From IMG/VR virus record IMGVR_UViG_3300033571_009591, positions 1 through 64,000 of that record: a stretch of DNA of 64,000 bases, one strand, 5' to 3'. Below, piece after piece: positions 20,313 through 48,441 of this stretch (position 1 is the first letter of the stretch; every line of letters begins with the position of its first letter). Both the position numbers and the translations under genes were made by a program. The notes below the pieces were generated by a model that saw nothing but the letters and a program-made list of their open reading frames with translations, was not told where the DNA came from and made no database searches. This stretch comes from a virus.

Positions 20313-20340
20313 ATCATTCGAAGGGTAGCAAAAAGTAAAA

Positions 20341-21249
20341 ATGTCTGAAACGGTTCCATACGGCGGCAAGGAAGAGGAAGACCCAAGTCTTTCCCTACCT
20401 GACATTTCCATCCCCTATGACTTGCGGCCAGACCTTTCCGACCTCGGAATGATTGAGCATGAGCGCGGCGTCTGTGAAGATACCTACGAAAACCGCGCCG
20501 CTCTCAGAAGAGCACATTTAAATTGGGACCCCGTCTATGATCAGATGGGTGCGCCAACGGGCTTGATAGTGGCACGGTCAGAAGAAGCGATGAAAGAACG
20601 GCGAGTGATGTCGTTGGCGGAAAAGCGTCCGCTTCTCCTGGACCCAACTAGCAACAACTCAGATTATTTAACGGGCCTCGACCTGATGCTTGAAGATTCA
20701 GCGGTGAAGGTAACGCCACCTTGGGTTATCGGCGCGACTAAGGCTTGGCTTGAGGAACAGCGTAACGGCGGCCCGAAGAGTCCACGGCGTGCCCCTGCTA
20801 GTCTACCACACCGTTGTCGAATTGTCAAGACGGACGGTATCCGCTGCATGCTCTGGACATCGGGACGGGTTAAAGATGACGGCTTGTGCCGCGTCCATCT
20901 ACGAACAACTAGACGGCCTGGAGCTGACATCGAGCGAGCGCGAGCGAAGCTGGTTCAGTCCGCCCCATACGCGGTTGATGTTTTGGAAGACATTATGGAG
21001 AACGGCCAGAGCGAACCCGCTCGCCTCAAAGCCGCTACAGAAATCCTTGACCGTGCTGGTGTGAGAGGCGGCGTGGAGATGGACATAGGTGTTGATGTCC
21101 AAGTTCGCTCAGCCGCTGAGATTGTCAACGAAAGATTACAACGGCTTGCCCTAGGAGCAATTCACGCAGCGGCTAGGTTGCCAGATGCCCTAGTTGTTGA
21201 TGCCGACCCTGTAATTGAAGATTCAACTACTACCGAGGAGATAGCATGA
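20341..21249 (+). CDS. Putative small terminase-like / DNA-binding protein
   Basis: 302 residues. Middle: HRCRIVKTDGIRCMLWTSGR...CRVH, a Cys/His cluster. C-terminal third: VLEDIMENGQSEPARLKAAT then EILDRAGVRGG, a phrase common in phage small-terminase-type proteins. Base composition is clearly more G+C-rich than its neighbours, hinting at separate origin. It starts directly at the end of the TAGCAAAAAGTAAAAATG repeat without a Shine-Dalgarno. No large terminase follows, so the role is uncertain. Confidence 0.5.
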   Translation: MSETVPYGGKEEEDPSLSLPDISIPYDLRPDLSDLGMIEHERGVCEDTYENRAALRRAHLNWDPVYDQMGAPTGLIVARSEEAMKERRVMSLAEKRPLLLDPTSNNSDYLTGLDLMLEDSAVKVTPPWVIGATKAWLEEQRNGGPKSPRRAPASLPHRCRIVKTDGIRCMLWTSGRVKDDGLCRVHLRTTRRPGADIERARAKLVQSAPYAVDVLEDIMENGQSEPARLKAATEILDRAGVRGGVEMDIGVDVQVRSAAEIVNERLQRLALGAIHAAARLPDALVVDADPVIEDSTTTEEIA

Positions 21250-21416
21250 CTACGGACAACAATATCCAACTAATGACAGCGGAAGTAGAAAGACTTACCA
21301 ATGCCATCAAACTAAGCAAGAACCGTGAAGAACATATACAACTGACAACGGAAGCAAATGAAGCAGCCTCAATACTGTCAGCGCTTATAGAGCACTCTCA
21401 AATTGGAAAAGAATAA
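21246..21416 (+). CDS. 56-residue helical protein
   Basis: ATGA overlap with the preceding gene. Highly helical, coiled-coil-like (QLMTAEVERLTNAIKLSKN). Unknown function. Confidence 0.55.
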   Translation: MTTDNNIQLMTAEVERLTNAIKLSKNREEHIQLTTEANEAASILSALIEHSQIGKE

Positions 21417-21428
21417 AACAAACGCCAA

Positions 21429-21524
21429 ATGAAAAAAGAACTAAAGGATTGTTTCTGGTGCGGCGAGACTTATGGAGCCGACACAAAGAACTGTCCCAAC
21501 TGCGCAACAAAGACGGACAGCTGA
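21429..21524 (+). CDS. 31-residue zinc-ribbon microprotein
   Basis: CFWCG...CPNC: two CxxC knuckles 15 residues apart in a 31-residue peptide. It lies 12 nt after the previous stop. Small but the motif is convincing. Confidence 0.55.
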   Translation: MKKELKDCFWCGETYGADTKNCPNCATKTDS

Positions 21525-22253
21525 GCTAGCGGCCAGAGTTCCTGAGTTGTTTCTAGTTGAACGGGCATCACAGCTTTCTGCAGTAGATTATTGTTCATAA
21601 TGTATTACGGTTAGTACAACCTTAGAATTAACCCTATACACAACGGCCTGCCTAATGGACGCCTGATTTGCATCAACGGCCTGACGGATGTACTCTGCGA
21701 TTCTTGCTAGATGACGGTCAACATAGAGGTTTCTGGGTTAATGATTTTCCCTTGTGATCTATGAAGGACGGTCATCACGGAGTTCTAGGTCGGAACCGCC
21801 ACTTTCTCTCCTAGTCGTACCTGCCGTCATCTAGCTCCTTTTAAAATTAACGGCGTGCCCAGAGCTCAGCGGCCCGCCCACATCCAAACAACTTCTTGAA
21901 GCCGACAGCGATCCACTGGAGGTGGGACGCCAGGTATCACTTCCAAACAACTTCTTTTAAAACGGTAGCTACCGCAGCTGATTTAGCAAAAAGTAAAAAC
22001 GGCTTGCAGCTGTAAGCGGCCCGCCAGGAACCGCGAGTTGTTTGTAGTTTCATATGGCGGCCAGACAAACCTCCGCCTACACCTCCTCCACCTCCACCTG
22101 CAACAAAAAATTTAACGGCGTGCTAGACTCCGCTTTGCGACTTCAGTCGCAAAGTGAACTACAGACAACTTAACAACTTTGGATAGCGGCCTGGTAGCTG
22201 CACGGTTGCAAAAAGTAAAAGCGGCCTGGTAGAAGCGCCCGATATATAACGGT
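21525..22253. other. Repeat-rich non-coding island
   Basis: About 730 bp without a convincing gene and richer in G+C than the surroundings. It holds many AACGGC/CGGCCTG words, the dyad set GATGACGG / GACGGTCATC / CCGTCATC (21710-21830), a perfect 10-bp hairpin (22133-22154), one AGCAAAAAGTAAAAA (21985), one variant (22207) and four AACAACTT-type repeats. A 39-residue ORF at 22053 is doubtful. Confidence 0.6.
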
Positions 22254-22295
22254 GTGTCTTCGTTGACAGTAAGCCAACGGTGCCTTAAAGTAGTG

Positions 22296-22517
22296 GGCAT
22301 GCTAGTGGAGTTGTATGTACTCAGCCGTGTAGTCAAAGCCAGGAAAGCGCGACAAGCATTAGCGGATGCTGAAGAGTACGAAGACGATGACGGATATCGC
22401 TATCCTGCCTACTTCCACTGTCGACGGTGTAAGAACCAGATGGACAAGATGCGCATCGAAGAACAACTTCAGGGATGGAAGAGGACTGGTGACGGTGGAG
22501 AAGAAATTCTCGATTGA
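22296..22517 (+). CDS. Hypothetical protein with CxxC
   Basis: 73 residues if begun at ATG 22296 (a GTG at 22254 is possible). Hydrophobic N-terminal 12, basic middle, then CRRC in a Tyr-rich stretch. Overlaps the next gene by 29 nt. Start and function uncertain. Confidence 0.5.
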   Translation, partial: GMLVELYVLSRVVKARKARQALADAEEYEDDDGYRYPAYFHCRRCKNQMDKMRIEEQLQGWKRTGDGGEEILD

Positions 22518-22692
22518 TGCAAGAGGAGTCCCATCGCCGGTCTGCCCCAATTGCGGATGCATGCTCTTAAGAATTACAGTTCAGTTCGAATTAGATAATT
22601 ATGAAATTTCTGGATACCTATTAGATGACGCTGAGTGTTCGTCATGCGGATGCCTCATTACCGCCCCCACTCCCATCGACCACATTAGTTAG
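22489..22692 (+). CDS. Zinc-ribbon protein (GTG start)
   Basis: 67 residues with CPNCGC and CSSCGC about 35 apart, a zinc ribbon. GTG 22489 is chosen because AGAGG lies 5 nt upstream; upstream in-frame ATGs at 22366 would overlap the previous gene more. Confidence 0.6.
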   Translation: MTVEKKFSIDARGVPSPVCPNCGCMLLRITVQFELDNYEISGYLLDDAECSSCGCLITAPTPIDHIS

Positions 22693-22697
22693 TTAAC

Positions 22698-22726
22698 TTG
22701 ACAACACGTCAATGGTGTACTAGTAT
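22698..22726 (+). promoter_or_regulatory. Promoter
   Basis: TTGACA, 17 bp, TAGTAT; drives the gene at 22760. Confidence 0.8.
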
Positions 22727-22759
22727 GTATACATACCAATAGGACTAGAAGGGGATCAG

Positions 22760-23837: not shown

Positions 23838-23938
23838 AAGTTGTTTGTAGTTATGCAGTGATCGGATGCATTTAGCAAAAAGTAAAAAACGGCCTGGATA
23901 CCTGGATGCTGTCGAACAACGTTGAGTTGTTTGTAGTT
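23838..23938. repeat. Three-part composite repeat
   Basis: AAGTTGTTTGTAGTT (23838-23852), 21 bp, AGCAAAAAGTAAAAA (23874-23888), 36 bp, AGTTGTTTGTAGTT (23925-23938). Same arrangement, inverted, as at 35796-35900 and 42029-42134. No gene in 23705-24033. Confidence 0.85.
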
Positions 23939-24033: not shown

Positions 24034-24183
24034 ATGAACAAGAAAGACGCACTCAACGGACTCCTTCGCATGAAGGGACGCTTTGTGCTGAACCAAAGTC
24101 CGAAGGTCTTTGCGGACAAGAGGACAAAGCGAAACCGCACGCGCTCTGACAAGAAGCGCCGTGCCCTAGATGAACAGGAATAG
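24034..24183 (+). CDS. 49-residue basic protein
   Basis: Strongly basic C-terminal half (DKRTKRNRTRSDKKRRALDE), a likely nucleic-acid binder. No ribosome site; leaderless. Its TAG stop is the first codon of the repeat TAGGAAAAAGTAAAAATG. Confidence 0.6.
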   Translation: MNKKDALNGLLRMKGRFVLNQSPKVFADKRTKRNRTRSDKKRRALDEQE

Positions 24184-24195
24184 GAAAAAGTAAAA

Positions 24196-24357
24196 ATGTC
24201 ACACACATACTTTGCCGTTGACGGGTCTTACGGAAACGGAGTAGACATCCTCGTTGTTGATACTTCGAGTTGGACGGAAGCGGATTGGGACGCGGTTGAT
24301 GAAGCCAGCGACTCTGAAAGAATTGAAGTTGCTCGTAACTTGACAATCAAGAAATAA
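24196..24357 (+). CDS. 53-residue acidic protein
   Basis: MSHTYFAVDGSYGNGVDILV...; the ATG is the end of a TAGGAAAAAGTAAAAATG repeat copy, which bridges it to the preceding stop. Acidic, function unknown. Confidence 0.6.
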   Translation: MSHTYFAVDGSYGNGVDILVVDTSSWTEADWDAVDEASDSERIEVARNLTIKK

Positions 24358-24368: not shown

Positions 24369-24419
24369 TGGTTGTTGAACAGTTATTAAACAAAACTAGG
24401 GGAATAGGAAAAAGTAAAA

Positions 24420-24683
24420 ATGGAAAAATACCAAATAATCGAAGAACGCTGGAACGCTGGGTACTACGCTCAACTTGAAGGCGCAACAATCCTAAAGTTT
24501 TTAGGAACTGAACCTGAGTTTGCGAGTCGAGGATTTCCAAGATTTTCCGCAAAACTAAAAAATGGTGAAGTAGTCGAACTTGTTTTATCTCAAGATGAAG
24601 AAGGTAATGGTGGGGGATTTATGTTCGGTCTTCCTGACTACACACTTCCCGAGTTTCGTACTGACTTGACAGAATCAAAATAA
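24420..24683 (+). CDS. Hypothetical protein
   Basis: 87 residues, beta-rich, with KNGEVVELVLSQDEEGNGGG. Its ATG is again the end of a repeat copy (AGGAAAAAGTAAAAATG). Function unknown. Confidence 0.65.
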   Translation: MEKYQIIEERWNAGYYAQLEGATILKFLGTEPEFASRGFPRFSAKLKNGEVVELVLSQDEEGNGGGFMFGLPDYTLPEFRTDLTESK

Positions 24684-24724: not shown

Positions 24725-24913
24725 ATGGTAGTAATTGGATATAACGTTAAGTTCTTAAATTGGATGTCATTACACAACAGTTACAATTTTGTAAGTCTTG
24801 AAGTCGCAACAGAGTTCTGTAAGAAATACGAGCGATTCGGCTATACATCAGAGATCAACACAATTTGGGCGCAAGAATCTGTAAGCCCTTCAGTCGAAAT
24901 TTCGGTGGCATAA
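24725..24913 (+). CDS. Hypothetical protein
   Basis: 62 residues, ribosome site AAGGGGGAAA. No domain recognised. Stop overlaps next start (TAATG). Confidence 0.65.
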   Translation: MVVIGYNVKFLNWMSLHNSYNFVSLEVATEFCKKYERFGYTSEINTIWAQESVSPSVEISVA

Positions 24914-25167
24914 TGACTACAAAAGCAAAGTGCTTGGCATTAGCCGAACAACACGGCATTGAGATTGAAGTAAGCAAAAACTATGATTATGAGTATAGCC
25001 TCTCAGTACCGAAGGGTTATCAACTCGAGGATTTTGATGGTGCCAGAAGTGGACTTTCAATGTGCGACATACCATCAGCCAAAGAACTCTGGAAAGATAT
25101 TTACTCTGACTTAAACACAATGATTAACTATAAGCCTTGGCATAAAGTTTCACAAGGTTGGGAGTAA
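24913..25167 (+). CDS. Hypothetical protein
   Basis: 84 residues from ATG 24913 (TAATG overlap). MTTKAKCLALAEQHGIEIEV suggests a short helix then a mixed fold. Unknown. Confidence 0.65.
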   Translation: MTTKAKCLALAEQHGIEIEVSKNYDYEYSLSVPKGYQLEDFDGARSGLSMCDIPSAKELWKDIYSDLNTMINYKPWHKVSQGWE

Positions 25168-25172
25168 TCATC

Positions 25173-25535
25173 ATGATTACAACAATAATCGCAGGAACTT
25201 TTCTTGGGGATTGGCAACCAGCCTCGGAAGATTGGTTTGCTAGTGCTGAACAAGGAACAGAGGACGCTAGTTGGATTGACCTAATCAACAAACTCTATGA
25301 TGCTCCACAAATAAAAAGTGGAAAAGGATTTAGAGTAAAAGTTGAACTTACTGAAAACGAGGCTGAACTTCTCAAAGGAGAGGCAAAGTATCGTATGGAG
25401 TATTGGTCTTTGATGTATCAAGATTGTAAAGCAGATATAGATAGGAACGCCCACACCTGCGCCAAAAAACTTTACCTAAGTTTAGGTGGGGTTGTTACAG
25501 AAAAAATGTCTAGACAAATGGGCATTAAAGTTTGA
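25173..25535 (+). CDS. Hypothetical protein
   Basis: 120 residues from ATG 25173, with GGGAG upstream. Charged, helical centre (VELTENEAELLKGEAKYRME). Third gene of the unit from 24725. Confidence 0.65.
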   Translation: MITTIIAGTFLGDWQPASEDWFASAEQGTEDASWIDLINKLYDAPQIKSGKGFRVKVELTENEAELLKGEAKYRMEYWSLMYQDCKADIDRNAHTCAKKLYLSLGGVVTEKMSRQMGIKV

Positions 25536-25536
25536 T

Positions 25537-25565
25537 TTGACAGAAACAAAATAAAGTTTTATACT
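25537..25565 (+). promoter_or_regulatory. Promoter
   Basis: TTGACA, 17 bp, TATACT; drives 25596. Confidence 0.85.
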
Positions 25566-25595
25566 TGGAGCTAACAAACTAAAAAGGGGAAATAA

Positions 25596-25724
25596 ATGAT
25601 TACAGTTACAAGCCATCAGTTAAAGATCTGTATCGAAGCCTTGAAAATGGCAGAGGCTACAGAAAAAAATGACTCGAAGTTTGGGTCAGTTCTTGACGAC
25701 CTACTACTCAAGACAGGAGAGTGA
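25596..25724 (+). CDS. 42-residue helical protein
   Basis: Amphipathic helix-rich; AAAAAGGGGAAATAA precedes the ATG. It lies 6 bp upstream of the YubB-like gene. Unknown. Confidence 0.6.
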   Translation: MITVTSHQLKICIEALKMAEATEKNDSKFGSVLDDLLLKTGE

Positions 25725-25730
25725 TAACAA

Positions 25731-26399
25731 ATGCCAAACTGGGTTTTTAACGACCTTCACATTGAGGGAAGCAAAGAGGCTATACAAAAAGTAAAAGCGC
25801 AACTCAATGCGCCATACACTAGGAACACCACAGAGGGAGAAGAAGTTATTTACAGTAATCCTGTAATCTCTTTCTTAAACATAGTTCGACCACCCGAAGA
25901 CAAGATGGACGAATACGAAGGCGTACATGGTTACAAAGATGGCGAGAAGCAAGGGCAAGGCGAGTTCAACTGGTACAACTTTAATAATCGCGAGTGGGGA
26001 ACAAAGTGGGATGTCGCAGTTCATGATGGCGAGAAGCACTCAGACACTCAACTCAACCAAGAAGAAGAAACCAAACTTCACTACTACTTCCAAACTGCGT
26101 GGTCACCACCACTTCCAGTAATCGAAGCCCTCTCACTTCAGCACCCTGAACTAGAAATAACTTTGAGGTATGAAGAAGAGCAGGGCTGGGGTGGAGAAAT
26201 CTACTGGGATAAAACTGGCTCGACTATTGTCGAAGAGTGGGACATACCTGACTCTCACGCAGATTATGTTAAGAAAGATGATGTTGATGGCTGTGTCTGC
26301 TCTAGAGAAGAAGATACAGATGAGTGGTATGACGATTGCCCCGGCAAAAAAACTATCATTGAACTTCACGCCAAGCGTGATGTGGTTCAACTCAAATAA
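25731..26399 (+). CDS. YubB ferredoxin-like (DUF1281) protein
   Basis: 222 residues. MPNWVFNDLHIEG, the WGTKWDV core, YYFQTAWSPPLPVIEALS and the final acidic EEEQGWGGE match the YubB/Api92 ferredoxin-like domain found in plasmid and phage proteins; it is the usual length. Function is unknown in the family. Contains CVCSREED...DDCP near the end, an extra metal-like site. Confidence 0.85.
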   Translation: MPNWVFNDLHIEGSKEAIQKVKAQLNAPYTRNTTEGEEVIYSNPVISFLNIVRPPEDKMDEYEGVHGYKDGEKQGQGEFNWYNFNNREWGTKWDVAVHDGEKHSDTQLNQEEETKLHYYFQTAWSPPLPVIEALSLQHPELEITLRYEEEQGWGGEIYWDKTGSTIVEEWDIPDSHADYVKKDDVDGCVCSREEDTDEWYDDCPGKKTIIELHAKRDVVQLK

Positions 26400-26431
26400 A
26401 AATCCTTAGCAAAAAGTAAAAATAAATGGAT

Positions 26432-26459
26432 TTGACAATCCATAAAAAACCTTTATACT
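26432..26459 (+). promoter_or_regulatory. Promoter
   Basis: TTGACA, 16 bp, TATACT, 10 bp downstream of an AGCAAAAAGTAAAAA copy; drives 26489. Confidence 0.8.
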
Positions 26460-26488
26460 TGAACCAACACCTAAGAAAGGGGAAGCAA

Positions 26489-26716
26489 ATGGAAATGAAA
26501 TCAAAATCGTTTCTTGTTACTGTTTATTATCGAGGTAGTGATTTAGTCGCTGACACTAATCAAAGTGATTATGACTACGACCTCTCTACTAGCAAAGTAA
26601 TTCGTGACCACCTAGAGGAGATTAACGAGGACACTAGCATTGTTGATGTTGCCATTGACACTAACTATCCTCGTATTCTAGAAGTTATGGACAGACAGAT
26701 AAACGACCCTCTATAA
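26489..26716 (+). CDS. Hypothetical protein
   Basis: 75 residues from ATG 26489; AAAGGGGAAG upstream. The longer frame from 26426 spans its own promoter and is rejected. Acidic centre; unknown. Confidence 0.65.
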   Translation: MEMKSKSFLVTVYYRGSDLVADTNQSDYDYDLSTSKVIRDHLEEINEDTSIVDVAIDTNYPRILEVMDRQINDPL

Positions 26717-26722
26717 AAGGAT

Positions 26723-26750
26723 TTGACAATCTGTAAAAAAGTGCTAGACT
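26723..26750 (+). promoter_or_regulatory. Promoter
   Basis: TTGACA, 16 bp, TAGACT; drives 26781. Confidence 0.8.
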
Positions 26751-26780
26751 CAGATCAACACCTACAGAAAGGGGAACAAA

Positions 26781-27146
26781 ATGGGAGACAGAGCAGTAGT
26801 TGGATTTAAGGCAAATGCTGAAAGTCCAGTTATTTATCTTTATTCACATTGGGCAGGTTCAGACATGGACTTCCTATTAGCACAGGCACTAGAAAAGGCA
26901 GAGCCTCGTTGGAGTGACTCAGACTATGCGACTCGTATAGTTATTTCACACTTGATTTCAGATGATTGGAAATCACTAACAGGCTGGGGTATCTCAGTAA
27001 ATACTTTCGCTTACCCTGACTATCAGACAATTAAGGTAGTCGAGTGGAGTGAGGGGATTGTTTCTGAACGCCTCACAGATAGCCCTGACACAGTAATTCA
27101 TACAGACACCTTCGCAGATTTCGTATCAGCGAAACAGAAAGTCTAA
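26781..27146 (+). CDS. Hypothetical protein
   Basis: 121 residues, MGDRAVVGFKANAESPVIYL then YSHWAGSD, a phrase seen in early phage proteins. Compact alpha/beta protein with many aromatic residues. Own promoter and AAAGGGGAAC site. No function known to me. Confidence 0.7.
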   Translation: MGDRAVVGFKANAESPVIYLYSHWAGSDMDFLLAQALEKAEPRWSDSDYATRIVISHLISDDWKSLTGWGISVNTFAYPDYQTIKVVEWSEGIVSERLTDSPDTVIHTDTFADFVSAKQKV

Positions 27147-27176
27147 GACACGCACGATTGAGTGGGCTAGATGGAT

Positions 27177-27206
27177 TTGACACTAGCCACTCTATCGTGT
27201 TAAACT
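27177..27206 (+). promoter_or_regulatory. Promoter of the ATPase operon
   Basis: TTGACA, 18 bp, TAAACT; drives 27251 and probably the MoxR gene. Confidence 0.75.
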
Positions 27207-27250
27207 CAGCCCAGCAAGAACCCAAGACACAATGACAAGGAGAACACCCA

Positions 27251-27712
27251 ATGTTAGACAAAGAAAAGAAAGTTCAAGGCATAGCAGTTTATGCTGAGTT
27301 TCGTCGAGCAGGTCAAACAATGCAGTTAATTGTTACACCTGACGCATACACAACAGAAGGCAATTTAGTTCCAATGACTTTAATTCGCCGAATTGTTACC
27401 AAAGAAACACCTAAGAAACAATGGAAGAATTCAACTCTTCGTGGACTAGACCTTAATGAAATTATTTCAGAAAAAAGAACTGTATCTGACTCAGACAAAA
27501 ATGAGTTCACAGAGAAGCGCATGCGACATGCTATTCATTTCTTTGATCAAATTATTAGTCAAGGTTGGACTATCGAGCAGAAACCAATTCTCGTTGAGGT
27601 ATCACGCCACGACGCAGATGATTTAATTAAAGGCAAGACACCAAACAAAATAATCTATCGCGTTCACATTTCTCGTAAAGCCTTAGGCTTTCCTGAATTA
27701 GTGGCTGCGTAA
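27251..27712 (+). CDS. Hypothetical protein upstream of MoxR
   Basis: 153 residues, mixed charge; QGIAVYAEFRRAGQTMQLIV at the N-terminus looks beta-rich. It lies 14 nt before the ATPase gene, so it is probably part of the same system. AAGGAG precedes the ATG. Not recognised. Confidence 0.7.
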   Translation: MLDKEKKVQGIAVYAEFRRAGQTMQLIVTPDAYTTEGNLVPMTLIRRIVTKETPKKQWKNSTLRGLDLNEIISEKRTVSDSDKNEFTEKRMRHAIHFFDQIISQGWTIEQKPILVEVSRHDADDLIKGKTPNKIIYRVHISRKALGFPELVAA

Positions 27713-27726
27713 GGGGGGATATAAAA

Positions 27727-28782
27727 ATGGAAAATCTTAAAGAGCGTTTCGACGCACTCACACCAAATCTAACACCAACACTATGGGATACCATTGTGGA
27801 TGTTGCCTCACAAGGAGTCAATGAAAACGCAGGGCTAATCCTTAATGGAAGTGTTCTTCCACAAGGTCGTTATGTTGAACGCGCACTTGGCGCAGACAGA
27901 GCCCCACGCAAATCTAAGATGGCTATGGCAGGTGGCATTGTGGAAAATCTCGAAGGCGAAGAGCAATACCTTCGACCAAATGGCACACCATACTTCTCTC
28001 GTTTATGGGGAGAGCATAGAGATGTAGAAACTTTGCGCAAAGCAAGAAGCGCAACTGCGATTTCTAATTCAACAGGTAAAGGCTCTGCTATGTATCCTTT
28101 ACTTTATGGCGCACCCGGTTGCGGAAAAACTGCCCTTATTGAAGCAGCGTATGGAACTAATGTTCGTACTTTGCTAGGTAATGGAGATGTTGAAGCAGCA
28201 GACATGATTGGTTCTTATGTTCAAACTCCAAGTGGAAACTTTGAGTGGGTAGATGGTGACCTAGTGAAGGCTGCGGAAAATGGCGAAGTTTATTTCATTG
28301 ACGAAATTGGTTTGATTGACCCTAAGGTTCTCGCACTCGTGTATGGACTTATGGATGGTCGTCGTGAATTAACTATCACTACAAATCCTGAGCGAGGAAC
28401 TATCAAGGCTCATCCTGATTTCTTCGTAGTAGCAGCGACAAATCCAAACGCACCCGGCGTTCGTTTATCTGAGGCGTTGCTATCTCGTTTCACACTTCAA
28501 GCAGAAATGACAACAGATTGGAATCTCGCTCGCAAATTAGGAGTACCAACAATTGTTGTAACTGCTGCTCAGAATCTTTATCGTAAGCAGATGAACAAGG
28601 AAGGCATTTCTTGGTCACCACAAATGCGCGAACTTCTAGCGTTTCGTGACATAGCAGAAACCTTTGGAACTGCGTTCGCACTTTCAAATCTAATCGCTGC
28701 TGCTCCACAGAACGACAGAGCAAGTGTGGCTGATGTTCTTTCCCGTGCCTTTGGGGAAGAGATGAAGCCAGCCAAAATCTAA
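27727..28782 (+). CDS. MoxR/CobS-type AAA+ ATPase
   Basis: 351 residues. Walker A GAPGCGKT (128-135), Walker B VYFIDEIG (about 187-194), sensor-1 ATNPN (about 236-240) and RLSEALLSRF carrying the arginine finger. MoxR-type ATPases work with VWA proteins as remodelling chaperones; CobS, a relative, powers cobalt insertion in B12 synthesis. The VWA partner is the next large gene. A pseudoknot directly follows the stop codon. Confidence 0.92.
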   Translation: MENLKERFDALTPNLTPTLWDTIVDVASQGVNENAGLILNGSVLPQGRYVERALGADRAPRKSKMAMAGGIVENLEGEEQYLRPNGTPYFSRLWGEHRDVETLRKARSATAISNSTGKGSAMYPLLYGAPGCGKTALIEAAYGTNVRTLLGNGDVEAADMIGSYVQTPSGNFEWVDGDLVKAAENGEVYFIDEIGLIDPKVLALVYGLMDGRRELTITTNPERGTIKAHPDFFVVAATNPNAPGVRLSEALLSRFTLQAEMTTDWNLARKLGVPTIVVTAAQNLYRKQMNKEGISWSPQMRELLAFRDIAETFGTAFALSNLIAAAPQNDRASVADVLSRAFGEEMKPAKI

Positions 28783-30869: not shown

Positions 30870-30915
30870 AACAAAAAGTAAAAACGACAAATGACGAAAT
30901 GACAAGGGGAAAGAA

Positions 30916-31904: not shown

Positions 31905-31943
31905 GAGAAACTCGCTTTTAGCAAAAAGTAAAAACGGACAAGA

Positions 31944-32455: not shown

Positions 32456-32475
32456 GCGAATAGCAAAAAGTAAAA

Positions 32476-32706
32476 ATGAAAGTTAGAGAACTTGTAAGTC
32501 AGTTGCAATTAAATTATCTCCCTGATGATGAAATTATTGTTGCTTACTGGGATAAAGAAACGATAGAAAATTACGGCTCGCCTGAACTTTCTAAAACTCA
32601 ATGGTCATTAGTTGTTGATGATTACGAGTCTGGTGAGTGGGGTTGGCAAAGTACGGCTGCCGAGGAATTTGTCGAGATTGCGGAAAGGATTGTCGGAGAT
32701 GAGTAA
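32476..32706 (+). CDS. Early hypothetical protein, paralogue of 23148
   Basis: 76 residues. MKVRELVSQLQLNYLPDDEI is related to the gene at 23148. Its ATG is the end of the TAGCAAAAAGTAAAAATG repeat; there is no Shine-Dalgarno. Acidic. Confidence 0.68.
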   Translation: MKVRELVSQLQLNYLPDDEIIVAYWDKETIENYGSPELSKTQWSLVVDDYESGEWGWQSTAAEEFVEIAERIVGDE

Positions 32707-32863
32707 AACTTGGAAAGTTACTTTCGTATCCCACTTCGGTACTGAGGTCACCTCGGAAACTCAAAGAGGGGCGCAAGCCCTTGCCTCGGAGTGGTTGGAG
32801 AACGAGTACGGTCACGATCTTGCTCGAGCCACCGAGATTGAGGTCGAGGAAGTCGAGCAATAG
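32699..32863 (+). CDS. 54-residue hypothetical protein
   Basis: Starts at ATG 32699 inside the end of the previous gene; the longer frame from 32612 is a shadow. Its TAG stop opens the next TAGCAAAAAGTAAAAA copy. Alpha/beta, acidic C-terminus. Confidence 0.6.
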   Translation: MSKTWKVTFVSHFGTEVTSETQRGAQALASEWLENEYGHDLARATEIEVEEVEQ

Positions 32864-32891
32864 CAAAAAGTAAAAACTAGGGGGGCAAAAT

Positions 32892-33457: not shown

Positions 33458-33505
33458 CCAAAAATTAAACCAACAACAAAAAGTAAAAAAGGGGAAAAAG
33501 AAAAA

Positions 33506-34876: not shown

Positions 34877-34997
34877 AGGTTTAGCAAAAAGTAAAAATAG
34901 CACCAAGATCGCTAGTGCGGTGCTGGACTTCCAAACAACTTTCATAGTTACCAAAACCTTAGCAAAAGAAGTGTTAAGACAAAACGGACATTTTGCT

Positions 34998-35795: not shown

Positions 35796-35900
35796 CTACA
35801 AACAACTTTTTGATCCGTACTATCTACTAATGCAATTTTTACTTTTTGCTAATGCAGGTTTTTTTTTGCAGCTGACCAGTTCCCGACTTACAAACAACTT
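35796..35900. repeat. Three-part composite repeat
   Basis: CTACAAACAACTT (35796-35808), 27 bp, TTTTTACTTTTTGCT (35836-35850), 37 bp, TTACAAACAACTT (35888-35900). CGACACGCT follows at 35926. Fills the gap between a terminator and the next promoter. Confidence 0.85.
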
Positions 35901-36653: not shown

Positions 36654-37029
36654 AAAACCACCACGCTATCTCTATCACGCAACTGCGGTTTGTAACCAAG
36701 AGGGCATTGAGAAAGAAGGACTTCGTGCTGGTTTCGGAGAAGTCTATGCGAGCGAGAGCGAAGATGATTGTCTAGCCTTTATGGGATTTCGGTTAATGTC
36801 ACACTTTCACTTTAGTAAAAAAGGTGAAGAGCCTGTGTTTGTAGAACACGACAGATTACTTGTTTATGAGATTGACACAAAGGTTACTGGGAAAAGTAAA
36901 TGGGAAGTTGGAACAGACCACAACCCTGAGTTTTTTGGTAACGCAACTTCATGGGTTCACTTTGGTTCGATAGAACGAGGAGCGATTGTTCGCTGCATTG
37001 AGTTCGCTCCACAGGTTAGCAAAAAGTAA
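36637..37029 (+). CDS. ADP-ribosyltransferase-like protein
   Basis: 130 residues. PRYLYHATAVCNQEGIEKEG, GEVYASESEDDCLAF and later LLVYEID follow the H-Y-E type layout of Tpt1/PARP-like ART folds (His in YHAT, Tyr in VYAS). If active it would use NAD to modify protein or nucleic acid. Its last three codons and stop (SKK-TAA) are formed by the AGCAAAAAGTAAAAA repeat. The WGR-like gene lies just upstream. Confidence 0.5.
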   Translation: MTTKTKKPPRYLYHATAVCNQEGIEKEGLRAGFGEVYASESEDDCLAFMGFRLMSHFHFSKKGEEPVFVEHDRLLVYEIDTKVTGKSKWEVGTDHNPEFFGNATSWVHFGSIERGAIVRCIEFAPQVSKK

Positions 37030-37050
37030 AAACTGCGGTGATGCGGGTGC

Positions 37051-37821: not shown

Positions 37822-38164
37822 TCTCACACTTGACATGCTTTCTAATTTAGTTGATGACATTACAAATGGAAGTTTAGATGGTCAGTTGGATTCGATTAGT
37901 AAAGCAGTAGAGCAGAGAAAGAAAGACATTCGTAGTGGAACGACCATTGACGATTTTAGAGTTGGAGATGTTGTGACCATTAACGAGCGTTGCGGAACTA
38001 AGTACCTTATTGGAGAACGAGGCACAGTTGTCGGGATTCGTAGGACTAAGATAACAATTCAGTTTGAGAACCCGAAGGGTAGGTTCGTGCGGAAGAACGC
38101 AGATGGAACTACCTATTCTTCAGATGTTGTAGTGCCAGTAGAAATTGTTGATAGAAAAAAGTAA
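37814..38164 (+). CDS. KOW/Tudor-like protein
   Basis: 116 residues from ATG 37814. DFRVGDVVTIN...LIGERGTVVGIRRTKITIQFE reads like an SH3-type KOW/Tudor barrel, often RNA- or protein-binding. Ends DRKK-TAA within a weak copy of the A-rich repeat. Confidence 0.65.
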   Translation: MSNLTLDMLSNLVDDITNGSLDGQLDSISKAVEQRKKDIRSGTTIDDFRVGDVVTINERCGTKYLIGERGTVVGIRRTKITIQFENPKGRFVRKNADGTTYSSDVVVPVEIVDRKK

Positions 38165-38193
38165 AAGAGAAGGAAATGCGGTAAAGTATTATC

Positions 38194-38418: not shown

Positions 38419-38664
38419 ATGAAGATTGTTGATAAGGATTACCACCCAAATGGCTCAGCCAATCCTTTTGTTGTTGCTATCGTAGATAGTCCTGAAGAAG
38501 GGGACACGAAACTAGTAATAATGTTTGAGGATTATGATTATGTTGCGGTATTATCACTTGACTATCTTGTTCGTGATGAAGACATCTCTGTAAAATTCAA
38601 TGGACATCACGGGGACAAGTACGAAAAACTTCGTAACGATCTCTGGGATGACTTTGCTGGATAG
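38419..38664 (+). CDS. Hypothetical protein
   Basis: 81 residues, acidic, beta-rich. No ribosome site; TTTATAC immediately precedes the ATG. The TAG stop opens a TAGCAAAAAGTAAAAA copy. Unknown. Confidence 0.6.
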   Translation: MKIVDKDYHPNGSANPFVVAIVDSPEEGDTKLVIMFEDYDYVAVLSLDYLVRDEDISVKFNGHHGDKYEKLRNDLWDDFAG

Positions 38665-38694
38665 CAAAAAGTAAAAACTAAGGGTGGGGGTGAA

Positions 38695-39265: not shown

Positions 39266-39328
39266 TTTTTACTTTTTGCTGTTTAGCTCTGCAGCCGGCG
39301 TTCACTGGAAGCCAACTACAAACAACTT
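39266..39328. repeat. Two-part composite repeat
   Basis: TTTTTACTTTTTGCT (39266-39280), 33 bp, AACTACAAACAACTT (39314-39328), immediately after the Ntn-hydrolase stop and before the small-RNA promoter. Confidence 0.85.
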
Positions 39329-40424: not shown

Positions 40425-40456
40425 CCTAACCCCTTAGGAAAAAGTAAAAATAGATG

Positions 40457-40480: not shown

Positions 40481-40493
40481 ATTGTTGCGGTGC

Positions 40494-40521: not shown

Positions 40522-40550
40522 TAGATCAACAAAACGAAAGGGGAAAGTAA

Positions 40551-40667
40551 ATGGAACTAGAAGTAGAATTGGCTCAATGTACGCGGTGTGAGGATGAAGT
40601 TGATGCGAGCACACTAATGGCTTATGGCGATTGGGAATTGTGTGAGATATGCCAGGACGACATTTAA
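40551..40667 (+). CDS. 38-residue zinc-ribbon microprotein
   Basis: CTRC...CEIC, two knuckles 20 residues apart, own promoter and AAAGGGGAAAG site. Confidence 0.65.
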   Translation: MELEVELAQCTRCEDEVDASTLMAYGDWELCEICQDDI

Positions 40668-40676
40668 TATCAAGTA

Positions 40677-40705
40677 TTGACTTTCTAAAAAATTATTTTT
40701 ATACT
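40677..40705 (+). promoter_or_regulatory. Promoter
   Basis: TTGACT, 17 bp, TATACT; drives 40736. Confidence 0.88.
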
Positions 40706-40735
40706 TACGCTACTTAATAAGAAAAGGGGAACACA

Positions 40736-41200
40736 ATGAAAGATACACACGAGATTGTAAAGTGTAAGAATTGCTTAAAAGATACCGAATACTCTTCATA
40801 TGAAGTCTACGAAGCAATATGCTTAAAGTGCCAGAAGCAAGTGGTGGTATTAGAAAGCGATTGCGTGTGCGCAGATGAAGATGGTCCAGACTATGGTGAG
40901 TGCTTCGGTTGCTATGATGATGCTAAAGATAATCTTAAGTATCTAATCAACGCTTGGGTAGATGCTCAAGGTAAAGAATTTTCTGAAGTCCGTATAGATG
41001 GAACGGGAATGGGATGGCAACGCCAGAGTGGTTATGCCCATACGGACATAGATGATATTGCTCATGCCCTCGCACTTCGCGGTGACTTCCGTATTATCTT
41101 TACTTTAGAAAATGGCGAACTAACTGCGACTCGATCATCTCATGATGAACCTACGGGAGCGCACTTCACCTTCACGCCAAGCGACACGCCAAGCGAGTAA
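40736..41200 (+). CDS. Zinc-binding hypothetical protein
   Basis: 154 residues. N-terminal CKNC...CLKC ribbon, then CVCADEDG...CFGC, then a DGTGMGWQRQSGYAHT domain. The 3' end overlaps a CGACACGC word. Function unknown. Confidence 0.7.
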   Translation: MKDTHEIVKCKNCLKDTEYSSYEVYEAICLKCQKQVVVLESDCVCADEDGPDYGECFGCYDDAKDNLKYLINAWVDAQGKEFSEVRIDGTGMGWQRQSGYAHTDIDDIAHALALRGDFRIIFTLENGELTATRSSHDEPTGAHFTFTPSDTPSE

Positions 41201-41202
41201 GG

Positions 41203-41231
41203 TTGCGTATATTGATTGACTATGTTATGCT
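41203..41231 (+). promoter_or_regulatory. Promoter
   Basis: TTGCGT, 17 bp, TATGCT; drives 41263. Confidence 0.65.
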
Positions 41232-41262
41232 TACTCCATAACAATAACGAAGGGGGAATAAA

Positions 41263-41358
41263 ATGATCTGCTCAAGTTGCTCGATAAGAGGTATCCGTGT
41301 TTGCTACCATATCGCGGTAAGTAAAGATGAACTTTACACGGAATATCTCGAAGATTAA
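41263..41358 (+). CDS. 31-residue Cys microprotein
   Basis: CSSC and a third Cys; AAGGGGGAATAAA before the ATG and a terminator just after support it. Confidence 0.58.
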   Translation: MICSSCSIRGIRVCYHIAVSKDELYTEYLED

Positions 41359-41371
41359 ATAGTAATTAAAA

Positions 41372-41398
41372 GCCCCCACCAAGTGTGGGGGTTTTTCT
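41372..41398 (+). terminator. Intrinsic terminator
   Basis: GCCCCCAC-caagt-GTGGGGG then TTTTTCTTT. Confidence 0.92.
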
Positions 41399-41414
41399 TT
41401 GCCGCGATGCATTT

Positions 41415-41471
41415 AGCAAAAAGTAAAAATTCAACAGCTGCGGTTGTCAGCTGCGCAACTGCAAACAACTT
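41415..41471. repeat. Two-part composite repeat
   Basis: AGCAAAAAGTAAAAA (41415-41429), 27 bp containing CAGCTG twice, AACTGCAAACAACTT (41457-41471). Here the two words are in opposite relative orientation to most other pairs. Confidence 0.8.
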
Positions 41472-41500
41472 CGCCACTTCCGCTTACTACCTACTAATAC

Positions 41501-41528
41501 TTGACTTTCTATAAAAAAGTAGTAGACT
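41501..41528 (+). promoter_or_regulatory. Promoter
   Basis: TTGACT, 16 bp, TAGACT; drives 41556. Confidence 0.82.
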
Positions 41529-42028: not shown

Positions 42029-42134
42029 CACTACAAACAACTTCGTTCAGATCTAGCTGCGTGCGGTATGTTTTTACTTTTTGCTAAATATCTCTGCATT
42101 TTTGAGATGCGTCTGAGAGAACTACAAACAACTT
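42029..42134. repeat. Three-part composite repeat
   Basis: CACTACAAACAACTT (42029-42043), 27 bp, TTTTTACTTTTTGCT (42071-42085), 34 bp, AACTACAAACAACTT (42120-42134). Closest match in layout to 35796-35900. Confidence 0.88.
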
Positions 42135-43362: not shown

Positions 43363-43582
43363 AAAAGGAAAGGCTTTCCTCAAAGAGAGAGAAAGAACTA
43401 GCCCACTTCGTGCGGAGTTTTTACTTAAGTTTGCCTTCATGAGTGACGAACAGTTTTGGAAGTGGTCTGAACTAAAGACAACTGCCGAAGCAAGAGCGTT
43501 TATGGAAGCAATACCAATGCCTCCAATGAGGACAAACAAAATGTTTATCGAACTAGAAAAACAGGAAGGTAGCAAAAAGTAA
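43349..43582 (+). CDS. Basic helical hypothetical protein
   Basis: 77 residues from ATG 43349 (GGAG upstream). The last residues GSKK and its TAA stop are formed by the AGCAAAAAGTAAAAATG repeat, whose ATG starts the next gene. Confidence 0.62.
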   Translation: MKVTKKGKAFLKERERTSPLRAEFLLKFAFMSDEQFWKWSELKTTAEARAFMEAIPMPPMRTNKMFIELEKQEGSKK

Positions 43583-43584
43583 AA

Positions 43585-43734
43585 ATGACACTAGACACGG
43601 GAACTTTAGTCGCAATAATGATCGCACTTGCAGGCTCATGTACGGTGATGATTATTTCTATTCGCAGAATTGGCGATCTAGAAAGACAGAACAGATTTCT
43701 ACGCAACCAACTAAAAACGAAAGCAGGTAAGTAA
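43585..43734 (+). CDS. Single-helix membrane protein
   Basis: 49 residues, one membrane helix then a basic helical tail (RRIGDLERQNRFLRNQLKTK). ATG from the repeat; stop overlaps next start (TAATG). Looks like a small spanin- or holin-accessory-type protein, not certain. Confidence 0.58.
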   Translation: MTLDTGTLVAIMIALAGSCTVMIISIRRIGDLERQNRFLRNQLKTKAGK

Positions 43735-43922
43735 TGGATGACACAACTCAGGTAGTACTACCCGACAACTGCGGGTTTTCATGTCAGTTCGAGTGGATTG
43801 AGGTTTCCTCAAACTTCTTTAATGTTTCTGTCTATACGCCTGCGCTTATCGCTGGCTTGGCTGGGTATTTGATTTACCGAGTTATTAAGAAGAGCAAGAA
43901 GAGTCCATTTGAGAAAAAGTAA
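43734..43922 (+). CDS. Single-helix membrane protein
   Basis: 62 residues: outside N-terminus with two Cys, membrane helix (about 35-50), Lys-rich tail. Overlaps the next gene by 14 nt. Confidence 0.6.
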   Translation: MDDTTQVVLPDNCGFSCQFEWIEVSSNFFNVSVYTPALIAGLAGYLIYRVIKKSKKSPFEKK

Positions 43923-44103
43923 AAACATAGAGGCAGACGCTTCTAAACTCTATGACTCAGGATTGTCCATAGACAATGTTGCTTTGGAGTTAGATGTTTG
44001 CTACCGAACAGCAAGAAGGGCTATTAAGAACGCTGGCGTCACACTTCGTGACCCCTCTGCCCGCCTGAAAGGGCGTACAAGCCCTAAGAGAAAGAAGGGT
44101 TAA
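43909..44103 (+). CDS. HTH DNA-binding protein (TTG start)
   Basis: 64 residues. LYDSGLSIDNVALELDVCYR then TARRAIKNAG is a resolvase-type HTH and the tail is basic. The start codon is TTG inside a repeat variant, giving RKSKN as residues 2-6. Confidence 0.65.
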   Translation: MRKSKNIEADASKLYDSGLSIDNVALELDVCYRTARRAIKNAGVTLRDPSARLKGRTSPKRKKG

Positions 44104-44909: not shown

Positions 44910-45506
44910 ATGAATACAGTTCCTAATAAAACTGTCGAACAAATAATCAGCGTAGCCATTGCGGTTGTGTTGGTTTCTTGTTTCTCGAGTTATGTTCAAA
45001 CTTCGAGCGCAGATGTAGTAACAAATAAAGTAACGAAGGCTCAACTGGCTGAAGAGATTGCTGTACATGAACAAAAGATTAAAGAACTTCAACTCAAGAG
45101 GTTTGCAGAACAACGAACACCATTTACAGATGAAGAACTAGCCCAGATGCTTTACGCAGTTGGCTTCGAGGGCAAGGCTCTCCGAGTTGCTTGGGCAGTT
45201 GTAAAGAAAGAGTCCAACGGACGACCACTAGCCTTTAATGGCAACACCCGTACTGGCGATAGTTCATACGGTATCTTCCAAATCAACATGATTGGTGGAT
45301 TAGGCGTAGACCGCCGAGAAAAGTATGACTTAAAAACAAATAGAGAATTATTCGACCCTGTTGTTAATGCTGAGATTGCGCTTCACATGACGAACGAAGG
45401 TGAGAACTGGAGTTCTTGGAAAGTTGGAAGCGGGTATAATGGTAGAGATCAAGCCCGTTTCTTAGACTGGTACAAGAAATTTCCAGAAGGAGTAAACCTC
45501 TCATGA
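44910..45506 (+). CDS. Lytic transglycosylase-like lysis protein
   Basis: 198 residues from ATG 44910 (AAAGGAATACC). N-terminal membrane anchor (about 10-30), a coiled coil, then an SLT/lysozyme-like domain with catalytic Glu in VVKKESNGRPLAFN and SSYGIFQINMIGG. It cleaves glycan strands. ATGA overlap with the next gene. Confidence 0.85.
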   Translation: MNTVPNKTVEQIISVAIAVVLVSCFSSYVQTSSADVVTNKVTKAQLAEEIAVHEQKIKELQLKRFAEQRTPFTDEELAQMLYAVGFEGKALRVAWAVVKKESNGRPLAFNGNTRTGDSSYGIFQINMIGGLGVDRREKYDLKTNRELFDPVVNAEIALHMTNEGENWSSWKVGSGYNGRDQARFLDWYKKFPEGVNLS

Positions 45507-46009
45507 CTGAAGAAGTAAACCCAATTCAAGGTCAAGTAGTTCCGACACCCGCCGAGTGGGTTGCTGAGCCACGCCATGAAGAACCTGTGGTTCCCGTTGA
45601 GGAACCTAAGGTTGAAGAAGTAGTTGTTGTTGTTGAACCAACACCAGAAGTTGTTGTTGAACCAACGCCGCCAGCTGCCAAAGAGCCAGTAGCAAAAAGT
45701 AAAAATGAAGAGCCTGTTGCAGCGGCAGCTCCAGCTCATGGCTTAGATGAAAAAGTTGTTCATACATCAGCCTTGGTTTTCAAGTCTAATTCTCACAATT
45801 CTGTATCAGTTGGTTTGGTACAAGAACGCTTAGTTGAGATGGGATTTGTCGATGCCAGTTCAGACAAGTACGGATGGCTATGCGAAGGAACAATGAAAGC
45901 CCTCGCTGAGTTTGCTAACATAAGTGTGGAAGAAGTTAATCTCAAGGACGCTTCAGTCATTGAAGCGTTGTTTGCGGGTACACAAGTTAAGGTCATTGAC
46001 TGTAAGTAA
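45503..46009 (+). CDS. Peptidoglycan-binding protein with P/E/V linker
   Basis: 168 residues. An N-terminal Pro/Glu/Val-rich linker (VVPVEEPKVEEVVVVVEPTP) and a C-terminal peptidoglycan-binding-like domain (VGLVQERLVEMGFV...YGWLCEGTMKALAEF). The repeat AGCAAAAAGTAAAAA lies in frame (45691-45705) and encodes AKSKN. Coupled to the transglycosylase; probably anchors it to the wall. Confidence 0.8.
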   Translation: MTEEVNPIQGQVVPTPAEWVAEPRHEEPVVPVEEPKVEEVVVVVEPTPEVVVEPTPPAAKEPVAKSKNEEPVAAAAPAHGLDEKVVHTSALVFKSNSHNSVSVGLVQERLVEMGFVDASSDKYGWLCEGTMKALAEFANISVEEVNLKDASVIEALFAGTQVKVIDCK

Positions 46010-46018: not shown

Positions 46019-46062
46019 AGCGTCCAGTCCCTCGTCTAAAATTGAGGGGCTGGGCGCTTTTT
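46019..46062 (+). terminator. Terminator whose U-run is a repeat copy
   Basis: AGCG-CCAG-CCCTC/GAGGG-CTGG-CGCT stem (46019-46058) runs into TTTTTACTTTTTGCT (46058-46072), so the inverted repeat supplies the U-run. Confidence 0.8.
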
Positions 46063-46107
46063 ACTTTTTGCTAAGCGCTTTCGTGTGGAACATGGAAGGA
46101 CGACACA

Positions 46108-46456: not shown

Positions 46457-47080
46457 TTAGGAAGTTGCCCTGCGGTTAGAGGCTTTGATTTGCGTATAGA
46501 CACTAGAGCCACCATTTGAAGTCTTATACCCATACCGAACAAGTCTGAAGACAAGTCCCGAAGTGGTAACTCCAAGTAACTTACCGAGTCTGTACATAGA
46601 AACCCCATGTACTGTGTGCGCTTCGTTGAGCAAGTAGGAATACTCTTCGGCTTCAGCGCGGTAGCGCGGTGAGTTTGAGCGAACCTTCTCTGCTATTGGC
46701 TTGAGTTCTTTGAGCCTTGCTAGTAGTTCAGCGGGAGGCAAGGCATGAATAGTCAATGAAGACTTAGGCTCATGCTTTGGAACCTCTGGAATTACTAGAG
46801 TTGGAGGTACAGGCTCTGCGGTGTGCTTGCCTATAATAATTCTTACCATCTCATTTGATAGCCCTGCCGATTTAGCAATGCTGACATGTGTCCACCCTGC
46901 GTGTACTAGCGCAATGATGTAATCATTTCGCAAGTTTTTTAAGTTGCTTTTAGCCAATGCGGTGAAGTTGTTTGTAACCTCTTCAGGTAGTTGAACATTA
47001 GCAACCTTGTTCATGCCTGCGCGTTTGTAGTAGTTTTTACTTTTTGCTAACTGTGTTTCTTCGATTGTCGTTGTTGTCAT
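46457..47080 (-). CDS. HTH DNA-binding regulator, paralogue B
   Basis: 207 residues. N-terminal HTH (AGWTHVSIAKSAGLSNEMVR), linker, then VRSNSPRYRAEAEEYSYLLN and GVSMYRLGKLLGVTTSGLVF, closely matching the gene at 7536. An in-frame repeat copy (47034-47048) encodes LAKSKN near the N-terminus and AACTT-type repeat encodes VTNNF. AAAGGACA site. Likely a phage regulator of the adjacent control region. Confidence 0.78.
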   Translation of the reverse strand: MTTTTIEETQLAKSKNYYKRAGMNKVANVQLPEEVTNNFTALAKSNLKNLRNDYIIALVHAGWTHVSIAKSAGLSNEMVRIIIGKHTAEPVPPTLVIPEVPKHEPKSSLTIHALPPAELLARLKELKPIAEKVRSNSPRYRAEAEEYSYLLNEAHTVHGVSMYRLGKLLGVTTSGLVFRLVRYGYKTSNGGSSVYTQIKASNRRATS

Positions 47081-47434: not shown

Positions 47435-47468
47435 TTGTCTGCCCCTCTTTCTTTGTTGTTATGCCGTA

Positions 47469-47497
47469 AGTTTAGTACTAGTGTTTTCATTTGTCAA
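47469..47497 (-). promoter_or_regulatory. Promoter
   Basis: Minus strand TTGACA, 17 bp, TAAACT; drives 47434. Confidence 0.88.
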
Positions 47498-47509
47498 ACT
47501 ATCTTACAT

Positions 47510-47536
47510 AAGAAAACCCCCGCATTTCTGCGGGGG
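47510..47536 (-). terminator. Intrinsic terminator (minus)
   Basis: CCCCCGCA-gaaa-TGCGGGGG then TTTTCTT on the minus strand; ends the 47551 gene. Confidence 0.9.
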
Positions 47537-47550
47537 CTTGTCTGTGAGTT

Positions 47551-47718
47551 TTAGTTAGTTGCCCAGAAGTCTTCTACTGCGAAGTTCTCGACCTTACTCA
47601 CCTTGCGGTTTCGCTTGTTCATCTTGCGGTCTTGCTTGATTGTGTCAATTACGAAAGGTGAAGCGATTAGTAGGACACCTGTGAAGTAAGCGATAAATAC
47701 TGCTGTATCTGATGACAT
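47551..47718 (-). CDS. Small membrane protein
   Basis: 55 residues from ATG 47718 (AGGGGAAATAAA upstream). One membrane helix (about 5-24) and a basic tail (KQDRKMNKRNRK). Function unknown. Confidence 0.65.
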   Translation of the reverse strand: MSSDTAVFIAYFTGVLLIASPFVIDTIKQDRKMNKRNRKVSKVENFAVEDFWATN

Positions 47719-47762
47719 TTTATTTCCCCTGTTCTGTAAGCACCCCTTGTGCTTATGAGATA

Positions 47763-47790
47763 AGTTTATCAAACTGTAGGCTAGTGTCAA
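47763..47790 (-). promoter_or_regulatory. Promoter
   Basis: Minus strand TTGACA, 16 bp, TAAACT; drives 47718. A Crp-like site lies about 62 bp upstream of the expected start. Confidence 0.82.
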
Positions 47791-47810
47791 GTATTATCAA
47801 GCGTTTTCTT

Positions 47811-47826
47811 TGTGATGTCTGTCACA
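47811..47826. promoter_or_regulatory. Crp/GlxR-like site (perfect)
   Basis: TGTGATGTCTGTCACA, an exact TGTGA-N6-TCACA. Its centre is near -62 relative to the expected start of the promoter at 47763-47790, a classic activator position. Confidence 0.65.
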
Positions 47827-48441
47827 CAGATTGCTAGGCGATTACTAGATATCTGACCAATCACGACCAGTTACGACCAGTCATCTAGTAGAAGTTGTCT
47901 GTAGTTCATAGACCTACTACCTATCAGCCAAGACCTATGTTACTCATTAGTAACCTACTCACTAGTAACTTACTCATCTTTTAGGTTAGTTCTTATATTA
48001 GTTTTTAGGTTACTCCCCAGTAACTTACTTATTTTTTATGTCACTATTTAATAACTTGCCCCCTACTAAATTACCCACTAATAAATTATCTATTAGTAGT
48101 CATTTACTTGCCTACCCCCACCCACCAGTAGGCTACTCACTAGTAGATATTATTTCTCATAAGTTACTAATGAGTATTTTTTATATATTTTTTAAAATTC
48201 AATTTTTATCTTTTTTAGAAAAATTTAAAGTATTTAAATCTTAGTTGGCTATCGAAAAGGTAGAAGTCAGCAAAAAGTAAAATCTCCGGAAACGATTAAG
48301 AAACGCTCTAAAACTATGCAAAGCCGTCTCGCAGGCCAAAAGCAAAAAACGGTACTGTTCATATGTTTTAACGCTTCGTCCAATGCTTCCGCTGCTTCAA
48401 TATCCACTGTACGCCTTTGAAAAAGACTGTACGATAAGCCA
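47827..48441. promoter_or_regulatory. Control region II with TTACT-N4-AGTAA operators
   Basis: About 615 bp without a gene between leftward genes and the rightward virion operon. It holds tandem ACGACCAGT (47864-47882), GTTACTCATTAGTAAC (47939-47954), CTACTCACTAGTAAC (47955-47969), GTTACTCCCCAGTAAC (48009-48024), CTACTCACTAGTAG (48133-48146), GTTACTAATGAGTA (48173-48186), the last repeat-family copy (48269) and no clear gene. Probably a late-operon switch and/or origin. Confidence 0.65.

Follow-up and report, generated by a model that had tools for sequence, protein, structure and literature searches.

An oriented 15-bp word repeated through one section of a virus genome, and a candidate phage regulator that may recognize it

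The stretch studied here, hereafter the window, is 64,000 nucleotides of virus DNA (positions 1 to 64,000 of IMG/VR record IMGVR_UViG_3300033571_009591), and it forms part of an 84,215-base record. Its portal protein shares 74% identity with the one from Actinomycetia phage DSL-LC01, which comes from a lake, and 58-62% with those of the Microbacterium phages Pumpernickel and Zooman and their relatives; judged by these identities the source virus is therefore an actinophage, and lake water is its likely habitat. Ahead of the structural genes, the section between 20 and 48 kb holds numerous short genes, chiefly on the + strand, among which TTGACA-type promoter-like sites and terminators are frequent. 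Scattered through this section, at about one copy per kilobase, is a 15-bp word, AGCAAAAAGTAAAAA. The word is asymmetric and reads as two near direct repeats, GCAAAAA-GTAAAAA.

Eighteen exact copies (13 on the + strand and 5 on the - strand) all lie within 20327-47048, and a search of the whole 84,215-base record found the same 18 and none outside 20,327-47,048. The core AAAAGTAAAA, preceded by variable bases, occurs 28 times, always at 20.3-48.3 kb, and the site total with near copies is likewise 28. These counts bear out the first-pass annotation, which had listed 18 exact and about nine near copies at 20.3-48.3 kb with none elsewhere, and had judged that a 15-mer would not recur in this way by chance. 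In 100 dinucleotide-preserving shuffles of the window no exact copy appeared; with up to two mismatches the window gives 28 matches against a shuffle mean of 0.61 and a maximum of 4, and with up to three it gives 38 against 7.45 expected, so that shuffling does not reach the observed number. Two 2-mismatch matches outside the section (7403 and 52300) are near the chance number, and a control pattern with the order of letters reversed had no match at all.

The copies are not placed at random with respect to genes (Table 1). Genes were called with a simple script, which makes any count based on those calls approximate, and the contigs compared are mostly partial and related, so their counts are not independent. 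In the window 20 of the 28 copies are mostly intergenic, compared with 27% of the region (p = 1.5e-6), and across 14 word-bearing contigs the figure is 187 of 225 sites against a background of about 38%; the earlier remark that most copies sit in gaps thus holds. Four of these relatives (G006, G014, G008 and G027) have 19-32 sites each. Orientation, with sites rather than independent events as the unit, follows transcription at 190 sites and opposes it at 25 (215 scorable sites in the 14 contigs), about 12% being reversed; in lineages with the form GGGGTAAAAA the numbers are 55 and 8. Of the window's five reversed copies, four fall in gaps of a + transcribed stretch, and the fifth (47034) lies in a - strand gene and hence points with that gene. 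Five of the 28 copies run at their end into an ATG (20341, 24196, 24420, 32476 and 43585) and one copy overlaps the stop codon of 38419-38664, as the annotation had noticed when it described copies forming stop and start codons. Only 2 further copies come within 20 bases of a start codon; for most, the distance to the next start ranges from 16 to several hundred bases, and most lack a Shine-Dalgarno core. Some copies have a -35 box 9-18 bp downstream, and others lie past a terminator. In three genes (45503-46009, 46457-47080 and 43909-44103) the word is translated in frame as (A)KSKN.

Table 1. Copies of the 15-bp word and candidate binding proteins (P1a, P1b, P3) in the window; mismatches are counted against AGCAAAAAGTAAAAA.
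Feature	Position	Strand	Context
Exact copy	20327..20341	+	runs into ATG of gene 20341-21249; conserved in G006, G014, G027, G008
Exact copy	21985..21999	+	intergenic; second motif flanking
2 mismatches	22207..22221	+	intergenic
Exact copy	23874..23888	+	intergenic; second motif flanking
1 mismatch (AGG)	24182..24196	+	runs into ATG of 24196-24357
1 mismatch (AGG)	24406..24420	+	runs into ATG of 24420-24683
3 mismatches	25783..25797	+	within gene 25731-26399
Exact copy	26408..26422	+	TTGACA -35 box 9 bp downstream
1 mismatch	30870..30884	+	intergenic, past VWA gene
Exact copy	31920..31934	+	TTGACA -35 box 9 bp downstream
Exact copy	32462..32476	+	runs into ATG of 32476-32706
Exact copy	32862..32876	+	intergenic by the gene call used
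1 mismatch	33475..33489	+	follows terminator
Exact copy	34883..34897	+	follows terminator; second motif 35 bp downstream
Exact copy	35836..35850	-	reversed; second motif flanking
Exact copy	37018..37032	+	TTGACA -35 box 18 bp downstream
2 mismatches	38153..38167	+	at gene end
Exact copy	38663..38677	+	most conserved of the sites; overlaps the 38419-38664 stop codon; HslV-like gene downstream
Exact copy	39266..39280	-	reversed, intergenic
1 mismatch	40436..40450	+	precedes terminator
Exact copy	41415..41429	+	follows terminator, intergenic
Exact copy	42071..42085	-	reversed; second motif flanking
Exact copy	43571..43585	+	overlaps gene end and next ATG
3 mismatches, full core	43911..43925	+	first codons of P3
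Exact copy	45691..45705	+	within gene 45503-46009 (AKSKN)
Exact copy	46058..46072	-	reversed, directly past terminator; orientation conserved in relatives
Exact copy	47034..47048	-	early codons of P1a (AKSKN)
1 mismatch	48269..48283	+	last copy ahead of structural genes
P1a, 207 aa	46457..47080	-	two helix-turn-helix domains; first candidate binding protein
P1b, 206 aa	7536..8156	-	paralogue of the two-domain protein; second window copy
P3, 64 aa	43909..44103	+	single helix-turn-helix; second candidate binding protein

Comparison with relatives aligned at 65-75% identity shows that most matched sites keep 13-15 of the 15 bases while identity in their flanks is only about one half; a few sites are missing or weakened, as in L044, where the 38663 site retains 8 of 15. 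Orientation is kept too, including that of the reversed copy at 46058. The relatives carry the word at the same cassette borders, where its absence was what the first-pass annotation had thought would tell against it. The sequence of the word, meanwhile, changes by lineage. G007 and G008 carry AGTAAAAAGTAAAAA, the AGT form being present in 17 of 28 G008 sites, and G029, G025, L078, L065 and others have AGGGGTAAAAA or AGGGTAAAAA with AAAAGTAAAA absent or nearly so (in G029, 18 GGGGTAAAAA and 0 AAAAGTAAAA). One and the same position carries AGCAAAAAGTAAAAA, AGTAAAAAGTAAAAA, GGCAAAAAGTAAAAA or TAGGGGTAAAAA according to lineage, and the switch by lineage at an unchanged position is seen both at gene 43585 and at the gene start ahead of the HslV-like gene. 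The matching 30 kb of DSL-LC01 contains no GTAAAAA. The joint change of all copies by lineage is best explained by a trans-acting factor with altered specificity. Overall, the word has the appearance of a regulatory site under conservation. DSL-LC01 (L113) has a promoter-like repeated word of its own at 24793-41523, TCTAAAGATGTTATA, present about 16 times, with a conserved leader, ACGACGAAAGGACAA, after many of the copies. As for neighboring genes in the window, the HslV-like peptidase gene is at 38695-39264, and at 27727-30732 a gene for an AAA ATPase and, after it, one for a VWA-domain (CoxE-like) protein form a pair conserved across relatives.

Two proteins are candidates for the factor that binds the word, P1a first and P3 second. 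Homologues of P1a were found on 55 viral contigs, and their tree separates a P1a clade with the AAAAAGTAAAA phages from a wider P1b clade that includes the window copy at 7536-8156. Among 39 contigs scanned whole, a strong P1a match is present in 17 of the 23 with at least 4 word copies and in none of the 16 with 0-2. Pfam assigns a Sigma70_r4-like match at the N terminus to 20 of 25 P1 members and a C-terminal helix-turn-helix (HTH) match, HTH_3, to 20. The AlphaFold2 model of P1a (mean predicted local distance difference test score, pLDDT, 82) has two separate helical units with the HTH pattern, and a Foldseek search of this model against the PDB gave no match at E <= 0.001. The window P1a carries a word copy in its first codons. 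P3 occurs in nearly all lineages, DSL-LC01 included, and its opening codons overlap with the word, or with the word's core, in the AAAAAGTAAAA phages. The P3 model has a mean pLDDT of 79, and for P3 the comparison with solved structures used sequence only. P3 was noticed through its neighbor, a small membrane protein (G014 11636-11815) whose presence pattern is perfect; that protein was set aside since it is unlike any DNA-binding protein. P2 (48460-48942), with two HTH-like segments, was also rejected as the binder, being conserved in all lineages whatever the word; a relative seems to be located among the terminase genes of Pumpernickel, Cece and Zooman, so its role is probably packaging.

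A second repeated motif, (C/T)ACAAACAACTT, has about 12 copies in the window (21885-22046, 23838-23935, 34932, 35798-35900, 39318, 41462, 42033-42134 and 46965), often close to the 15-mer. In the form CTACAAACAACTT it flanks up to a third of the word copies, some on both sides about 90 bp apart, and it is present also in G006, G008 and G025. The motif may be the site of P1b, although in G025 it occurs with no clear P1.

P1 homologues accompany other repeated, mostly oriented words in other phages. The repeated word is GAAAAAACGAATAC in L145 and L147, AAAATGAAAAAT in L146, L158 and L165, GAAAAAATGAATA in L154, TGCGTGGAAAA in L143 and TACACGGAAAA in L161; L163 and L186 have AGAAAAAATAACTA, shared with L284, a contig in an Aquiluna bin that was the sole match in one scan of bacterial genomes with P1. 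Every copy has a single orientation in L146, L154, L158 and L163, and orientation is mixed in L161 and L143. In L154 and L163 most copies have a terminator on one side and a promoter on the other and precede the next start by about 85-115 bp, with a TTGAC -35 box downstream at exactly 30 bp from four L163 sites and at 27-30 bp from five L154 sites. The L161 locus with TACACGGAAAA also holds 15 copies of a DnaA-box-like sequence, AAGTTATCCACA. Cultured Microbacterium phages have P1 homologues as well (gp49 of Pumpernickel, gp45 of Cece and gp40 of Zooman), and the word found in these three gives 5, 8 and 7 matches, respectively, in the first 20 kb against 0.2-0.3 expected, with none in the next 20 kb. 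It is bipartite in Cece (L286) and Zooman (L287), CGCAAGAGT-N5-CACTAAA or a close variant, mostly in gene gaps, and one Zooman copy is immediately upstream of the P1 homologue; Pumpernickel (L285) has the variant CGCAAGAGA...CTAAT. The pairing is a post hoc correlation, and repeated words occur also in phages without P1.

According to the above-described analysis, we think it fairly probable that a sequence-specific DNA-binding regulator encoded by the phage recognizes the word, which would then be a site of the stoperator or operator kind. The annotation had offered a protein-binding site as one of three options, and conservation against the flanks, the lineage-wide change and the orientation with transcription favor that option as far as sequence comparison goes. 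The regulator, P1a or else P3, would occupy some 28 oriented sites that separate the many short transcription units in the non-structural section at 20-48 kb and, once bound, would control or limit RNA polymerase there, like the stoperators of cluster A phages; it may also control its own gene, by way of the copies that P1a and P3 have in their first codons. Several observations weigh against this proposal. Some copies lie within genes and those in the window keep no constant distance from promoters, which points to no single step of transcription, and the four reversed copies misfit a strictly one-way stoperator. Six contigs with 7-17 copies have no P1a (G017, G028 and G042-G045, records of 15-52 kb that are probably partial), and the GGGGTAAAAA lineages have a switched word but no clear P1. 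The association of P1a with the word tracks phylogeny and hence is not independent evidence, and matching P1 recognition helices with the words by eye gave no simple code.

A broader and more tentative possibility is that P1 represents a previously undescribed family of two-HTH phage regulators, its first domain related in sequence to sigma factor region 4, whose members might bind phage-specific oriented words, once per transcription unit, in many lake actinophages and in cultured Microbacterium phages, as a stoperator-like layer with no sign of lysogeny. To our knowledge, detailed study of scattered oriented sites that have a matching regulator has mainly concerned temperate mycobacteriophages. 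If the sites act alike in phages without lysogeny genes, they would have a purpose different from immunity, such as turning off early genes or setting their timing, and the pairing with the word in Zooman, Cece and Pumpernickel would allow testing in ordinary laboratory strains.

The word could instead act in the transcript, as a translation signal or an RNA-protein site near gene starts. The strong orientation with transcription, the five copies that run into an ATG and the Shine-Dalgarno-like core brought by the AGG variants all agree with this, and A-rich leaders can favor initiation. We nevertheless regard it as unlikely, because most copies stand at least 16 bases short of the next start, several lie upstream of a promoter-like site, and four in the window are reversed, the one at 46058 staying so in relatives. 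The translation signal suggested by the annotation fares poorly for the same reasons, since it would suit few copies and most are without the Shine-Dalgarno core. Slightly less likely still is an architectural or genome-maintenance site, by which a nucleoid-like, partition or replication protein would organize the non-structural region with no direct control of genes. The density of roughly a copy per kilobase in one section and the flanking second motif would suit such a role; however, ten records gave no ParA match, and neither placement at transcription-unit borders nor orientation is required for it.

Recombination was the annotation's third suggestion, with the word as an anchor for swapping gene cassettes, and copies do sit at gene borders of a mosaic region. 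A per-gap rank test gave p = 0.03 (14 and 21 gaps), which would allow a weak effect, but when the relatives were pooled, gene pairs flanking a copy were separated no more often than the rest (99 adjacent and 10 moved, compared with 188 and 13; Fisher p = 0.38). Copies also occupy conserved junctions, the genes around the best conserved copy are adjacent in 15 relatives and separated in none, and recombination alone is not expected to change a word lineage-wide; we therefore consider an anchor improbable. A compositional accident or a favored codon run (AKSK), to which the A-rich word and its (A)KSKN reading in three genes might point, is ruled out for practical purposes by the shuffles and by conservation against the flanks, with the mostly intergenic placement and the empty reversed-order control also speaking against it.

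Among known systems, the 17-bp repeats of cluster O phages are similar in that more than 30 copies occur, many of them intergenic, in phages not known to be temperate and with function unknown (PMC4351075). They are palindromic, with a 7-bp inverted repeat and no orientation (PMC4351075), whereas the present word is asymmetric and oriented and has no dyad symmetry. The start-associated sequences of cluster K are a repeated asymmetric 13-mer, confined to non-structural genes, in one main orientation and with a second associated motif, all of which recalls the word (PMC3203893). However, they stand 3-7 bp before starts and contain AGGAG (PMC3203893), and the present word reaches a start codon at only 5 of its 28 copies and mostly lacks a core of the AGGAG type.

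The closest resemblance is to the stoperators of cluster A mycobacteriophages such as L5 and Bxb1, which comprise 20-30 short asymmetric sites, mostly between genes, whose consensus varies between related phages and whose binder is a monomer with two DNA-binding domains (PMC9283540, PMC6550527). They too have one main orientation relative to transcription, although the reversed share found here departs from a strictly one-way stoperator; the word also differs in sequence and is confined to one non-structural section. The cluster A immunity repressor was not among the 60 listed PDB sequence matches of P1, nor was P3, compared by sequence only, matched to it. Ten records, several of them partial, gave no match to an integrase (PF00589) or ParA (PF13614); a small serine resolvase is present in seven records. 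In the window a small serine recombinase of the resolvase family is encoded at 1895-2338 (-), and one occurs in all scanned relatives longer than 100 kb. Because no integrase or ParA was found and P1 has no cluster A repressor match, we do not assign the system to the stoperators, and the likeness to them lies in the number of sites, their orientation and the drift of their consensus.

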